Below are positions 1,251 to 47,109 of a DNA stretch of 49,389 nt, in pieces. The notes beneath the pieces are model-generated. The model was not told the origin of the DNA. It saw nothing but the letters and a program-made list of their open reading frames with translations, and did no database searches. Origin of the DNA: Acidobacteriota bacterium (GTDB lineage: Bacteria; Acidobacteriota; Blastocatellia; Pyrinomonadales; Pyrinomonadaceae); contig JAIVJM010000015.1 in assembly GCA_020199995.1 (NCBI GenBank), positions 1 through 49,389 of the forward strand. The letters are read 5' to 3'. Each line of letters starts with the position of its first letter. Positions within the stretch are counted from its first letter, which is position 1. The position numbers and the translations under genes were made by a program.

Positions 1251-1365
1251 ACAGTAAGCCTCAAAGCAGTCGAGATACATAACCGGTCTCGACTGCTTAT
1301 TGCTTACTGCTTTGCGGCTTACTCTTGAGACGCCCTCTATCACGGCCCGGGCTTGCGACCTTAAA
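1251..1365. repeat. Heptad hairpin (AGCAGT family) plus degraded CGCCCTC/GGGCTTGCG box
   Basis: Left heptads (gtaagcc, aagcagt) pair with right heptads (actgctt, ggcttac) around a loop with cgaga...tctcg at its base. The right side continues into a degraded copy of the outer arm of the compound palindrome at 19746-19906 (cgccctc..cacgg..gggcttgcg). It starts just after the E2 stop codon. The spacer 1248-1688 otherwise holds the promoter candidate at 1441 and no supported gene. Confidence 0.75.
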
Positions 1366-1440
1366 TATTGCGGACGGGTGGCGATTCCGTAATAAATGCC
1401 CCGTGCGCAACCAAAACAGACTTTTCCCCGTCACACCCTC

Positions 1441-1469
1441 TTGACTTGCCTTTTGGGGTTCGATAAGAA
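1441..1469 (+). promoter_or_regulatory. Possible sigma70-type promoter for the OmpA gene
   Basis: TTGACT at 1441-1446 and TAAGAA at 1464-1469 are separated by 17 nt. The -35 is good and the -10 weak. If used, the mRNA would carry a leader of about 210 nt before the ATG at 1689. Confidence 0.35.
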
Positions 1470-1688
1470 TCCAGGTGATTCGGGAAAACGAAACAAACAA
1501 CCTCGCATGGTTTCAAGGACGGGCGGGACTTGATCAAAGCGCCCGGTCGCCGGAGACTTACGGGCGGCACACTCGTTAAGTCCGGAGAGTGTGGGCGGGC
1601 TCATCCGTCGCCGCCGTGGCGGCATCCGGCGGCAAATGGGGGCGCGCGAAACTTCCCGACAGACTTTCGCACGATGGAGATAAAAAAG

Positions 1689-2723
1689 ATGAGTAACGAT
1701 TCCACCAGAGTCAGATTGATCGGATTCACCTTCGCGCTCGTGCTGGCACTCGCGCCGGCGGCGCTCGCGCAGGGCGGGATGGATAACTCCGGCGCCAACA
1801 CGCGTTCGGTCGCCGCGGGCCAGAAGATGAAGGTCAAGGGCGTCGTCACCAGACGCGACGCCGACACCTTCGTCGTGCAGGACGCCAACGGCGTCCAGAC
1901 CACCGTGGCCTTGGGCAACAACACCAGCGTCAAGACCAAGGGCGGCTTCCTCCGTGGCGGCACCAACTACGGCGTGACCGCCATCCTCCGCGGCCTCAAC
2001 CTCGAAGTCGAGGGGCGCGGCGACGGCTCGGGCAACCTCGCCGCCGAGAAGATTCGCTTCAACGAATCAGACCTCCGCACGGCCCGCACCGTCGAGGCCA
2101 ACGTCACTCCGGTCGAGAACCGCGTGGGCGCGGCTGAAGGGCGCATCGGTCAGGTCGAGCAGAATTCGCAGCGGCTCTCGGGACAGTTGGACGAGTTGGC
2201 CGCCATCTCGAACGCGGCACGCGGCGGCGCGAAGGCCGCGCAGGAAACCGCCGACGCGGCCATCGGCGGCGTCAACGCCACCAACGAGCGTATCTCGGCT
2301 TTGGATGACTATCAGGTGCAGAACAACACGGCCATCCTCTTTAAGGTCGGCAGTGCCGTCTTGTCGCGCGACTCGAAAGCACAGCTCGACGAGATCGCGC
2401 AGCAGGCGCTCAACGCCAAAGGCTACGTGCTCGAAGTAGGCGGGTTCGCCAGCTCGGACGGCTCGACGGAAGCTAACCGCCGCCTCAGCCAGCGCCGCGC
2501 CGACACCGTCATCCGCTACCTCGTCGAGACGCACAACATCCCGCTGCGCCGCATCGTCACGCCCTACGGCTACGGCGAGGCTCAGGCCGTGGCCGACAAC
2601 GCGACCCGCGCGGGCCGCGAGCAGAACCGGCGCGTCGAAGTGAAGGTGCTCGTCAACCGCGGCCTCATGCAGGGCGCGCCGACCATGACCCGCCCCTCGA
2701 CGGACAATCCTGAACTCGAATAG
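1689..2723 (+). CDS. OmpA-family outer membrane / peptidoglycan-binding protein
   Basis: Likely anchors the outer envelope to peptidoglycan. The ATG at 1689 gives a clean signal peptide (hydrophobic FTFALVLALAPAALA, cleavage near AQ) and has GGAGA at 1676-1680, 9 nt upstream. In-frame codons further upstream give no signal peptide. Of 344 residues, about 45-125 form a small beta-rich domain like DUF5666 (VKGVVTRRDADTFVVQD). About 135-210 is an Ala/Glu/Gln-rich helical, probably coiled-coil, segment. The C-terminal 110 residues are an OmpA-C domain (ILFKVGSAVLS, GFASSDGS, NRRLSQRRA, NRRVEVKV) with the diaminopimelate-binding pattern. No beta-barrel is evident, so it is a periplasmic OmpA-C protein rather than a classical porin-like OmpA. 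A hairpin terminator follows. Confidence 0.9.
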   Translation: MSNDSTRVRLIGFTFALVLALAPAALAQGGMDNSGANTRSVAAGQKMKVKGVVTRRDADTFVVQDANGVQTTVALGNNTSVKTKGGFLRGGTNYGVTAILRGLNLEVEGRGDGSGNLAAEKIRFNESDLRTARTVEANVTPVENRVGAAEGRIGQVEQNSQRLSGQLDELAAISNAARGGAKAAQETADAAIGGVNATNERISALDDYQVQNNTAILFKVGSAVLSRDSKAQLDEIAQQALNAKGYVLEVGGFASSDGSTEANRRLSQRRADTVIRYLVETHNIPLRRIVTPYGYGEAQAVADNATRAGREQNRRVEVKVLVNRGLMQGAPTMTRPSTDNPELE

Positions 2724-44022: not shown

Positions 44023-44158
44023 GGGTTTAGAACGCTCCCGGACGCGAAAGGGCGGGAGCTACTGGGCGACAGTCTAGCGGACGCAGGCGGTAAAATGAAA
44101 GCGGGGCCGAGCCACCGGCCCCACCCCGCCATAGTAAGGAGCGCCAGCCGCGCGGCGT

Positions 44159-46996
44159 TCAGACCAACGCGCCGCAGCACTTCTTGTACTTCTTGCCAGA
44201 GCCGCACGGGCACGCCTCGTTGCGGCCCACCTTCGGCTGGTCGCGCGTCACGGTCCGGGTGCGCGCGGCCTCTTCGCCAGCGGCAGTCGCGCCCTGATTC
44301 GGCCCCGTGAAGGTCATGGACGTGGGGCGGCGCGCGCGTCGCTGGTGCAACTGCTCGGGGGCCTGCTCGGCGACGACCTGAAGGTTGAAGAGCGTGCGGA
44401 TGGTGTTCGTGTCGACGCGGTCGAGCAGCGCCTGGAACATATCGAAGCTCTCCTTTTTGTATTCGACGAGCGGGTCCTTCTGCCCGTAGCCGACGAGCCC
44501 GATGCCCTGCTTGAGGTGGTCAATGGCGAGCAGGTGATCCTTCCACTGCGCGTCGATGATGTTGAGCATGATGATGCGCTCGTAGGTGCGCATCGCCTCT
44601 TCGCCGACCTGCGATTCTTTCAGCTCGTACTGGACTTTGACCTTCTCCCAGATGGCCGGCTCGATTTGCTCCGTGCTCATGTTCGAGAAGTCTATCCCTT
44701 CGGCGTCGGCGTCGAAGGCGTAGGTCGAGTGGAGCTGGATTTTGAAATTCTCCACGTCCCAGTCGTCGGGTGCGACGTCGGTCGAGATGTACTGCTTGAC
44801 GAGGTCTGAGAGGAGGTCGCGCGCGACATTGAGGACATACTCGCGTTGGTCTGGCTCTTCCATCAACTGGCGGCGCAGCCCGTAGATGGTCTCGCGCTGC
44901 CGGTTCATCACGTCGTCGTACTGGAGGAGGTGTTTTCTGCTCTCGAAGTTGCGCGCCTCGACCGACTTCTGCGCCGACTCGATGCGGCGCGAGACCATCT
45001 TCGACTCGATGGCGACGCCCTCCTCCATCCCCAGACGCTGCATCAGCGCCTTGACCTTGTCGCCCGCGAAGATGCGCATGAGGTCGTCTTCCAGAGAGAG
45101 GAAGAAGCGCGACGAGCCGGGGTCGCCCTGACGGCCCGAACGACCGCGCAACTGGTTGTCGATGCGCCGCGACTCGTGGCGCTCGGTGCCCATGATGTGC
45201 AGGCCGCCTAAAGAGACGACCTCCTTGTGCTCCTCCTCGACGATCTCCTTAGCGCCCTTCAAAGCCTCCTCCCACTCTTCCTCGGTGGCCTCTTCGGGGT
45301 CTATCTCCTGCCGCCTCAGCGCCTCGCGCGCGAGGAATTCGGGGTTGCCGCCGAGGAGGATGTCCGTGCCGCGCCCGGCCATGTTGGTCGCAATCGTAAT
45401 CGCGCCCTTGCGTCCCGCCTGCGCCACAATCTCGGCCTCGCGCTCGTGGTGCTTGGCGTTGAGGACATAGTGATAGTCGGGCACTTCGTCACGCCGCTGG
45501 TCGTCGAATTCGAGGAGGCCGCGCTCGTCTTTGTGCCGGATGCCGACCTTGTTCAGGCGGCGCGAGATGAGTTCCGAGTTCTCGACCGAGACCGTGCCGA
45601 CTAAGACCGGCTGGCCCTTCTCGTGCAGCTCCTTGATCTCCTCGACGACGGCATCCCACTTCTCGGGGAGCGTGCGGTAGATGACGTCGGAGTTGTCCCT
45701 GCGAACCATGTCGCGGTGCGTCGGGATGACGGAGACTTCGAGCTTGTAGGTCGAGTCGAACTCGGCGGCCTCGGTCTCGGCGGTTCCGGTCATGCCCGCG
45801 AGCTTTTCGTAGAGGCGGAAGTAGTTCTGCAGGGTGATGGTGGCGAGCGTCTGGTTCTCGCGCTCGATCTTGACGCCCTCCTTGGCCTCGACCGCCTGAT
45901 GCAGTCCATCAGACCAGCGGCGGCCCTTCATCAGTCGGCCCGTGAACTCGTCAACGATGATGACCTCGCCCTCCTGCACGACGTACTGGTGGTCGAGCCG
46001 GTAGAGCGTGTGCGCCTTCAAAGCCTGCTCGACGCAGTGGAGCATCTCCATGTTCGAGGGGTCGTAGAGGTTGCCGACGCCGAGGAGGCGCTCGGCCTTG
46101 TCCACGCCGTCTTCGGTGAGGACAGCCGAGTGCTGCTTCTCGTCAACGAGGAAGTCGCCGGGGCCGGGCTTGCCTTCTGAATTCAGCTCGGCGCGCTTGA
46201 GATGAGGGATGACGGCGTCGGCCTTGTAATACTTGTCGGTCGCCTCGTCCGAAGCGCCCGAGATGATGAGCGGCGTTCTGGCCTCGTCAATCAGAATCGA
46301 GTCCACCTCGTCCACGATGGCGTAGTAGTGCGGGCGCTGGACGCAGGTCGCGAGGTCGAACTTCATGTTGTCGCGCAGGTAGTCGAAGCCGAACTCGTTG
46401 TTGGTGCCGTAGGTGATGTCGGCGGCGTAGGCGTCCTTGCGTTCCCAGTCGTCGAGGTCGTTGACGATGGCCCCCACGGAGAGGCCGAGGAACTTGTAGA
46501 TGCGGCCCATCCACTCGGCGTCGCGCGTGGCGAGGTAGTCGTTGACGGTGACGACGTTGACGCCGCGTCCCGTCAAAGCGTTCAGGGTGGCCGGAAGCGT
46601 GGCGACGAGCGTCTTGCCTTCGCCCGTTCGCATCTCCGAGATTTTGCCTTCGTGGAGCGAGACGCCGCCGATGAGCTGGACGTCGAAGTGGCGCATCCCG
46701 GTGGCGCGCACCGAAGCCTCGCGCGTTAGGGCGAAGACTTCGGGCAGGACTGCGTCGAGCGCCGCCTTTGTCCGCCGCTTGAGTTCCGTGCGGGCGCGCT
46801 CGTCTCTCGCCGTCGTGTCGCCGATGGCCCCCATGACCTGCTCGCGAATCTCCGCGATGCGGGCGCGCATCTGGTCGTCGGAAAGCTTCTGGACGGCGGG
46901 TTCGAGTTCGTTGACGCGCGCGACGATGGGCGCGAGGCTCTTCAGGTAGCGCTGGTTGCTGCTGCCGAAAACTTTGGTCAGAAATTTATCAATCAT
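44159..46996 (-). CDS. secA: Preprotein translocase ATPase SecA
   Basis: Drives protein export through SecYEG by ATP hydrolysis. The 945-aa protein is complete: N-terminal [19 protein letters not shown], Walker [20 protein letters not shown] (Walker B), [10 protein letters not shown] and the helicase-like [20 protein letters not shown] (split across motif VI). The C-terminal zinc-binding SecB-interaction tail [14 protein letters not shown] is intact. No Shine-Dalgarno is clear within 10 nt of the ATG at 46996. A heptad hairpin lies just upstream. Confidence 0.98.
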
Positions 46997-47017
46997 GGCT
47001 CAAATCCTCAGAAAAAG

Positions 47018-47109
47018 AAGTCTGGAGTCTGGAGTCCGGAGTCGGGGGCGGGAAAGAAAAGCGGTCTTCCTTTTCCTGCCCCGGACTTCAGACTCCAAAA
47101 CTCGCGACT
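47018..47109. repeat. Heptad hairpin (GAGTCTG family) upstream of secA
   Basis: agtctggagtctggagtccg gagtcggggg on the left faces cctgccccggacttcagact ccaaaactcgcgact on the right, with erosion in the right arm. It lies 22 nt upstream of the secA start, within its leader. Confidence 0.8.

Follow-up and report, generated by a model that had tools for sequence, protein, structure and literature searches.

Heptad hairpins between genes of an acidobacterium and its relatives: occupied spacers tend to stay occupied while the repeat unit changes

The spacers between genes in a 49,389-nucleotide stretch of the genome of a soil-dwelling member of the Acidobacteriota (contig JAIVJM010000015.1 of assembly GCA_020199995.1, positions 1 to 49,389; below, the window) raise a simple question: how can so many of them hold a hairpin whose arms are tandem 7-mers facing their reverse complements, when the 7-mers differ in sequence from one spacer to the next? 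The source genome (G000, with the window as G000:C9) is a metagenome-assembled genome (MAG) of 5.32 Mb in 352 contigs, and its nearest named relatives are Pyrinomonadaceae, Acidobacteriota. A sequence-only reading had listed at least 12 such spacers, at coordinates that proved correct. The elements, here called heptad hairpins, measure about 60-110 nt and consist of tandem-heptad arms around a non-heptad tip. By comparing relatives we show that occupied spacers tend to stay occupied while the unit family changes in sister species, and that the dominant family changes by lineage.

Occupied spacers tend to stay occupied while the unit family changes

The genus g115, to which G165 belongs and which is independent of the genus of G000, offers three colinear sisters (G165, G183 and G193) with about 85-90% nucleotide identity in coding DNA. 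Counted by hand over three regions, occupancy in G165 and G183 is concordant in 35/36 spacers: 14 are occupied and 21 empty in both, one is occupied in G165 only and none in G183 only (Fisher p = 4e-9). The unit has changed in 8 of the 14 spacers that are occupied in both (for two of these 14, one or both species have an array but no full hairpin), and in the spacer L194:18781 the three sisters carry three different units.

Two spacers bear on the replacement of an occupant. At L193:5107 the unit GTTTCAR is common to G165 and G193, while in G183 the unit is AGTGACR and an AATCGT hairpin lies nested within its arms; a local duplication accompanies this swap. At L193:17815, AACGATG and its flanks are common to G165 and G183 while G193 has GGATTGC, and the downstream gene of G193 is without the start codon and first codons found in the other two. 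Together these patterns imply that overwriting of an occupied site took place at least once, whichever species is taken as outgroup, provided that the shared hairpins are homologous; this proviso is weaker at L193:5107 because the tips of the G165/G193 pair are inverted. Two side observations belong here. In the L254 / L193:17815 region of G193 the downstream start site is uncertain, or the assembly is in error, and at L194:1675-1788 G165 has a heptad hairpin while the orthologues in G183 and G193 have a different inverted repeat, CACGAAG...CTTCGTG.

The change of dominant family is most evident for AGTGACR. The 420 kb of G165 contain only 1 array of this family, whereas G183 has 23 in 64 kb and G193 has 16 in 61 kb, which corresponds to densities of 0.2, 36 and 26 per 100 kb (more than 100x denser in the two sisters). 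Given these densities and the sister-site data, we infer that a lineage-specific expansion went largely into already occupied sites.

Orthologues of spacers in the window itself can be followed across genera as well. Most relatives have an occupied spacer before mnmA, with the units AAATGGT, AAACTTG, AAATCGT, AACCGTG, AAACTCG and others. Orthologues of the spacer after mnmA (site 33196..33232) carry ACTCAGG, AGGAGGC, AAAACTG and others, and those of the spacer with the hairpin 40803..40893 carry AAACCGT and AAAGACC. Neither G000 nor any of the 20 relatives compared has an occupant in the neighbouring spacer 27625/31001. In a cultured relative, Pyrinomonas methylaliphatogenes K22, a single locus of 21 kb was covered and showed no heptad hairpin. 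Relatives do not carry identical sequence at the same spacers, which is in line with the sequence-only reading.

Period, unit families and dispersed copies

The 7-nt period is not a matter of impression. When the window is scanned strictly (12/14 matches at a given lag), lag 7 yields 17 arrays and lag 8 a single one; codon structure also lifts the counts at lags 3, 6 and 9. Over the 709 kb of G000 used for genome-scale counts there are 193 lag-7 arrays against 9 at lag 8, a density inflated by contigs that were picked for AGCAGT matches, and in the 163 kb picked without regard to such matches the numbers are 31 against 2. The pattern AGCAGTRAGCAGTR occurs 190+155 times in G000 and its reversed control 2+1 times. 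Without any heptad selection, the arms of long palindromes in G000 (n=125) have self-identities of 0.61, 0.59 and 0.56 at lags 7, 14 and 21, and of 0.21-0.28 at other lags; 7 is the best lag in 84/110 palindrome arms of at least 20 nt. G165 repeats the picture, with arm identities of 0.66, 0.67 and 0.68 at lags 7, 14 and 21 and 60 heptad hairpins in the 420 kb sampled. The strong 7-nt excess in autocorrelation expected from the sequence alone is clearly borne out.

Period and hairpin form can be uncoupled. The 420 kb of a further relative, G203, contain 63 heptad arrays and zero heptad hairpins, so that the two traits are separable. These hairpin-free arrays (L210-L229) reach about 15 units, and several of them flank another palindromic repeat (GTTTAGAGCAGCGC...), with units that differ on its two sides. 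Some other Acidobacteriota families (G138, G042, G083, G131, G125) are themselves rich in the reversed control mentioned above (RTGACGA tandem), which indicates that other heptad families exist there.

Greedy clustering of the G000 sample gives 22 unit families, in agreement with the at least six proposed earlier. Nearest-neighbour distances between families are no smaller than for letter-shuffled units (p = 0.81 in G000, p = 0.29 in G165), so the units are unrelated in sequence, as the sequence-only reading had stated, while period and hairpin form are common. A single large cluster obtained by single linkage was rejected as a density effect, since family representatives are no closer than shuffled ones. 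The tips are partly shared: hairpins with unlike units have an 8-mer in common in their central 32 nt in 110 pairs in G000 (37 +- 6 in pair-preserving shuffles) and in 74 pairs in G165 (26 +- 5). The common words are purine-rich (e.g. AAAGACA, AAGACCG), and this excess may be partly composition because the shuffles do not keep dinucleotides. A common period and form with partly shared tips make a common process or a common core plausible.

Within a family the situation is different. Among hairpin pairs with like units the polarity of the left arm is the same in 305 cases and opposite in 0 in G000 (292:3 with another unit window), and the ratio is 298:0 in G165. Near-identical tips recur at unrelated loci; the central 28 nt of the window hairpin 19791..19873, for example, are identical to L137:6480, with unrelated flanks. 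The AATCGT family has recurring ends (AAAAGCCGT...ACGGCTTTT) at its dispersed copies. When regions of G165 are compared by BLAST with G183 and G193, single hairpins match dozens of full-length copies at 78-94%, besides the syntenic matches. Hence, the hairpins of one family are copies that have dispersed, and for them descent from a single repeat is the preferable interpretation; this does not hold between families. The earlier proposal of a shared generating mechanism instead of such descent is therefore plausible between families and the less favoured interpretation within them, and slippage alone, one of the generators suggested with it, does not account for families each of which is dispersed, keeps one polarity and has tips that recur.

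Proposed routes of replacement and rival explanations

How could an occupant be replaced? We consider it close to an even call, leaning slightly to the doubtful side, that dispersing hairpins settle between stop and start codons and that the occupant of a filled spacer is replaced by the family that is currently expanding. Hairpins would spread through the genome as whole units. DNA-level copying may occur where a hairpin already exists, through template switching or break repair at the extruded palindrome, and an occupied site would in this way attract its successor. Slippage would keep the array periodic (polymerase-footprint slippage is a published guess for a 7-nt period, quoted in PMC4692102) and template switching would keep the arms alike. 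Template switching is known to homogenise the arms of inverted repeats and to invert their spacer (PMC8604942), and to create and maintain hairpins (PMC8794818). Dispersal would in addition need a copying step between loci, and no dedicated enzyme for copying turned up among the tests for RAYT (REP-associated tyrosine transposase)/Y1, reverse transcriptase and SbcCD described below. A bolder form of the replacement account, in which sites perpetuate themselves (through breakage or template switching the palindrome draws a copy of the active family, so that the site is inherited and its sequence overwritten, with no transposase or reverse transcriptase dedicated to the task), is conceivable, though we think it rather unlikely.

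Several traces are of the kind that such processes leave. Mirrored double changes in the two arms exceed those of column-permuted partners in three families (43 vs 11.8 +- 2.7, 39 vs 12.5 +- 3.1 and 31 vs 11.8 +- 2.3). A mirror test against slid arms (86% vs 8-14%) overstates the mirroring and was set aside for the fairer column-permuted version. Orthologues at L193:2629 and L193:5107 clearly have their tips in opposite orientations, and L170:11118 is one clear unflipped pair. Nested hairpins have AATCGT inside AGTGACR or GGGTGAC arms. Nesting, local duplication and loss of flanks are what break repair could leave.

A number of observations weigh against replacement by copying at the site. Two of the five families show only weak co-variation between their arms (10 vs 5.6; 8 vs 3.5). 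A selection-matched chimera control separates real from chimeric pairs in G000 (0.86 vs 0.72) but not in G165 (0.76 vs 0.77), so that much apparent mirroring is family consensus and co-variation of the arms is only partial. With 6 cases against 158 simple pairs, nesting is infrequent, which does not support loop insertion as the usual route. Hairpins are often gained and lost in genus g105, which is more diverged, the sister comparison concerns one genus and about 60 kb, and the break-repair gene test covered SbcD alone. Finally, repeated landing in the same short permissive spacer is not fully separable from replacement.

This last point leads to the strongest rival: elements like MITEs (miniature inverted-repeat transposable elements) or REPINs (REP doublets forming hairpins), moved by an undetected transposase, would land repeatedly in a few permissive spacers, and the swaps would be insertions and deletions. 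We judge it more doubtful than probable. Dispersed copies with recurring tips and ends, such as those of the AATCGT family, speak for it, and so do the differences between empty and filled sites in g105. The concordance of sister occupancy speaks against it, as do the shared states at L193:5107 and 17815, which argue for replaced occupied sites. The data on Y1_Tnp weigh against it too. Over 99 genomes, with abundance measured for one unit family (AATCGTR), Y1_Tnp does not correlate with abundance (rho 0.13, p 0.20). G183 and G193 (MAGs 83-89% complete) are among the richest genomes and have no Y1_Tnp detected, and none of the three Y1_Tnp loci of G000 has a flanking heptad hairpin (one short unrelated array lies near one of them). 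The RAYT link suggested by the sequence-only reading is thus not supported, and neither is its link to reverse transcriptase: no RVT_1 was detected in the MAGs of G000, G165, G183, G193 and G203 (83-92% completeness), and its correlation with abundance is rho 0.08. With such completeness single gene absences are weak, and it is the pattern over genomes that carries weight. Loss of SbcCD as a permissive factor was rejected as well; the SbcD cut-off was exceeded in 3/99 genomes, which include hairpin-rich G000 and not hairpin-less G203.

Alternatively, the hairpin itself might be selected in its spacer (for mRNA stability, processing or insulation), occupancy being kept and sequence left free. 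Occupancy is indeed conserved as sequence changes, and the hairpins are closely packed to codons at both ends: they adjoin the upstream stop codon (within a few nt), sometimes supplying the stop, and commonly end 0-25 nt 5' of the next start codon. Nonetheless, we consider such selection improbable. The 72 heptad hairpins of G000 lie in 54 tandem, 9 convergent and 5 divergent spacers (3 are mostly genic), a distribution that tracks the number of all G000 spacers of at least 40 nt (323 tandem, 60 convergent and 63 divergent; all gene calls are simple codon-usage calls made for the present analysis). Read in transcript sense, mismatches show no clear preference for G-U over A-C (22 vs 20 in G000, 30 vs 22 in G165), and RNA-level selection through G-U intermediates was therefore rejected, there being no clear wobble excess in either genome. 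No Shine-Dalgarno arrangement was found, and many homologous spacers are without a hairpin. The idea, taken from the mnmA leader, that the hairpin restores Shine-Dalgarno spacing was dropped, the 8/23 and 9/30 cases not being clearly enriched over backgrounds of 0.26 and 0.21. A function as all-frame translation stop was discarded too: the strand bias near stops (51:5 within 10 nt of stops in G000) is weaker in G165 and G203, and it is partly circular because the arrays can supply the stop.

Birth of each hairpin in situ, by slippage and snap-back copying without dispersal, would explain the exact 7-nt periodicity of unrelated units and the hairpin-free arrays of G203; with one unit present in hundreds of copies per genome, with fixed polarity and recurring tips, it was already disfavoured and has little probability left. 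Intrinsic bidirectional transcription terminators, for which the stable stems between genes and the A-run ... T-run ends of the AATCGT family might be cited, are largely refuted and very improbable, given that at least 6 T in the next 8 nt follow only 5/144 and 8/120 hairpin ends, so that these are not ordinary terminators, and that most hairpins lie in tandem, not convergent, pairs.

The hairpins of the window and known heptad systems

Within the window (no strand is assigned to the hairpins) the AGCAGTR family is the first met, in an imperfect hairpin at 1253..1323. It recurs at 13869..13972, where the palindrome ends at 13955 and the right array runs on to 13972, and at 19791..19873, with the tip CAAGAC-CGGTTAGCC-GTCTTG. 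A second palindromic repeat (GCCCGACCGTGAGGGAGGGC) encloses the latter hairpin. A second repeat, GCCCGACCGTGAGGGAGGGCG with its complement, encloses or adjoins AGCAGTR hairpins at window positions 19746-19905 and at L147:18885, L137:6480 and L155:1566; GCCCGACCGTGAGGGAGGGCG is itself roughly palindromic. Two single arms of the same family, at 33196..33232 (+ strand, just 3' of mnmA) and 35448..35494 (- strand), confirm what had been noted as single arms at 33198 and 35450. The GAGTCYG family is represented at 5645..5740 (overlapping the 3' end of the upstream reading frame), at 31826..31883 (in the divergent spacer before mnmA) and, with a decayed right arm, at 47015..47097. AATCGT units occur at 4166..4248, between convergent genes (AATCGTN; outer ends TAAAAGCCGT...ACGGCTTTTA), and at 40803..40893 (AATCGTR; tip GACAAGAAA-GAATGGGAT-TTTCTTGTC). 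Further hairpins belong to the families AAATGGT (32014..32086, immediately 5' of the mnmA start codon), TTTAGCT (38567..38676, with a long loop) and GAGGCTG (40174..40265). The site listed earlier at 18998 does hold a hairpin (18994..19083, with GGTGTCG-like units), although a degenerate one, weaker than described, whose only clear array is the left one (18998-19028).

Rfam matches in the window are limited to a tRNA and two Acido-Lenti-1 elements, with none on the heptad hairpins. The two Acido-Lenti-1 matches (RF01687) are inverted, at 35208-35254 (-) and 35374-35420 (+), and enclose a GCCCCGGAGGGGCGAAAGA hairpin at 35278-35352. Non-heptad GCCCC...GGGGCGAAAGA palindromes of this kind recur in the genome, e.g. 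at window positions 7927-7990.

Heptads and heptad hairpins are not new, as the Xanthomonas, Nostoc and TAACTGA cases are already known. Xanthomonas (GGGAATC) and Nostoc (GGGGAYT) have intergenic heptameric repeats; each Xanthomonas genome has a reported 70-75 inverted convergent pairs, which lie near the ends of open reading frames (ORFs) and are rare in divergent spacers, and species differ in repeat length and sequence at corresponding pairs of genes (PMC4692102). Compared by published description, and with units that differ from those reported here, both systems share tandem 7-nt units concentrated between genes and close to ORF ends, and Xanthomonas also shares inverted convergent pairs able to form hairpins. 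Unlike these systems, for which one G-rich family per genome is described, the present genomes have many unrelated families each, exchange of families at conserved sites and dispersed copies with common tips. The TAACTGA heptamers of Beggiatoaceae, cyanobacteria and Bacteroidetes are intergenic and patchy across phyla, with strain-specific 7-nt indels and no known mover; they are mostly direct (169 sets, one inverted), lie mostly upstream of start codons and have one unit (PMC4679880). They resemble our repeats in being heptad, intergenic and without known mover, and differ in being mostly direct repeats of a single unit. REPINs are dispersed intergenic hairpins that act as replicative units, with compensatory changes and with singlets as remnants (PMC3116915). 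The hairpins described here resemble them in these respects, with partial co-variation of the arms, whereas REPINs lack heptad arms and we find no link to a Y1 transposase. Quasipalindromes produced by template switching are marked by homogenised arms and inverted spacers; the hairpins here show inverted tips at two sites and may share the homogenised arms in part. Nonetheless, template switching is a mutational process and not an element, and alone explains neither dispersal nor the change of unit family.

In cyanobacteria, short tandemly repeated repetitive (STRR) heptads reportedly lie between genes, and Elhai et al. are said to have described, in 2008, small folded elements (small dispersed repeats, SDR) embedded in them. 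To our knowledge no swap between sister species is known for cyanobacterial STRR or SDR. In the literature searched, which included few subscription papers, no description was found of many families per genome, of exchange at conserved sites or of any such elements in Acidobacteriota.

Bacterial heptad repeats are a long-standing observation for which an account of origin or movement has been lacking. That sister genomes keep the sites while the repeat family changes makes the process testable. The results argue against two usual suspects, RAYT and reverse transcriptase, and indicate that three traits (7-nt period, hairpin form and site) evolve independently. Swaps change the C-termini of proteins as well as start regions, and may for that reason explain multi-base changes at the ends of genes.

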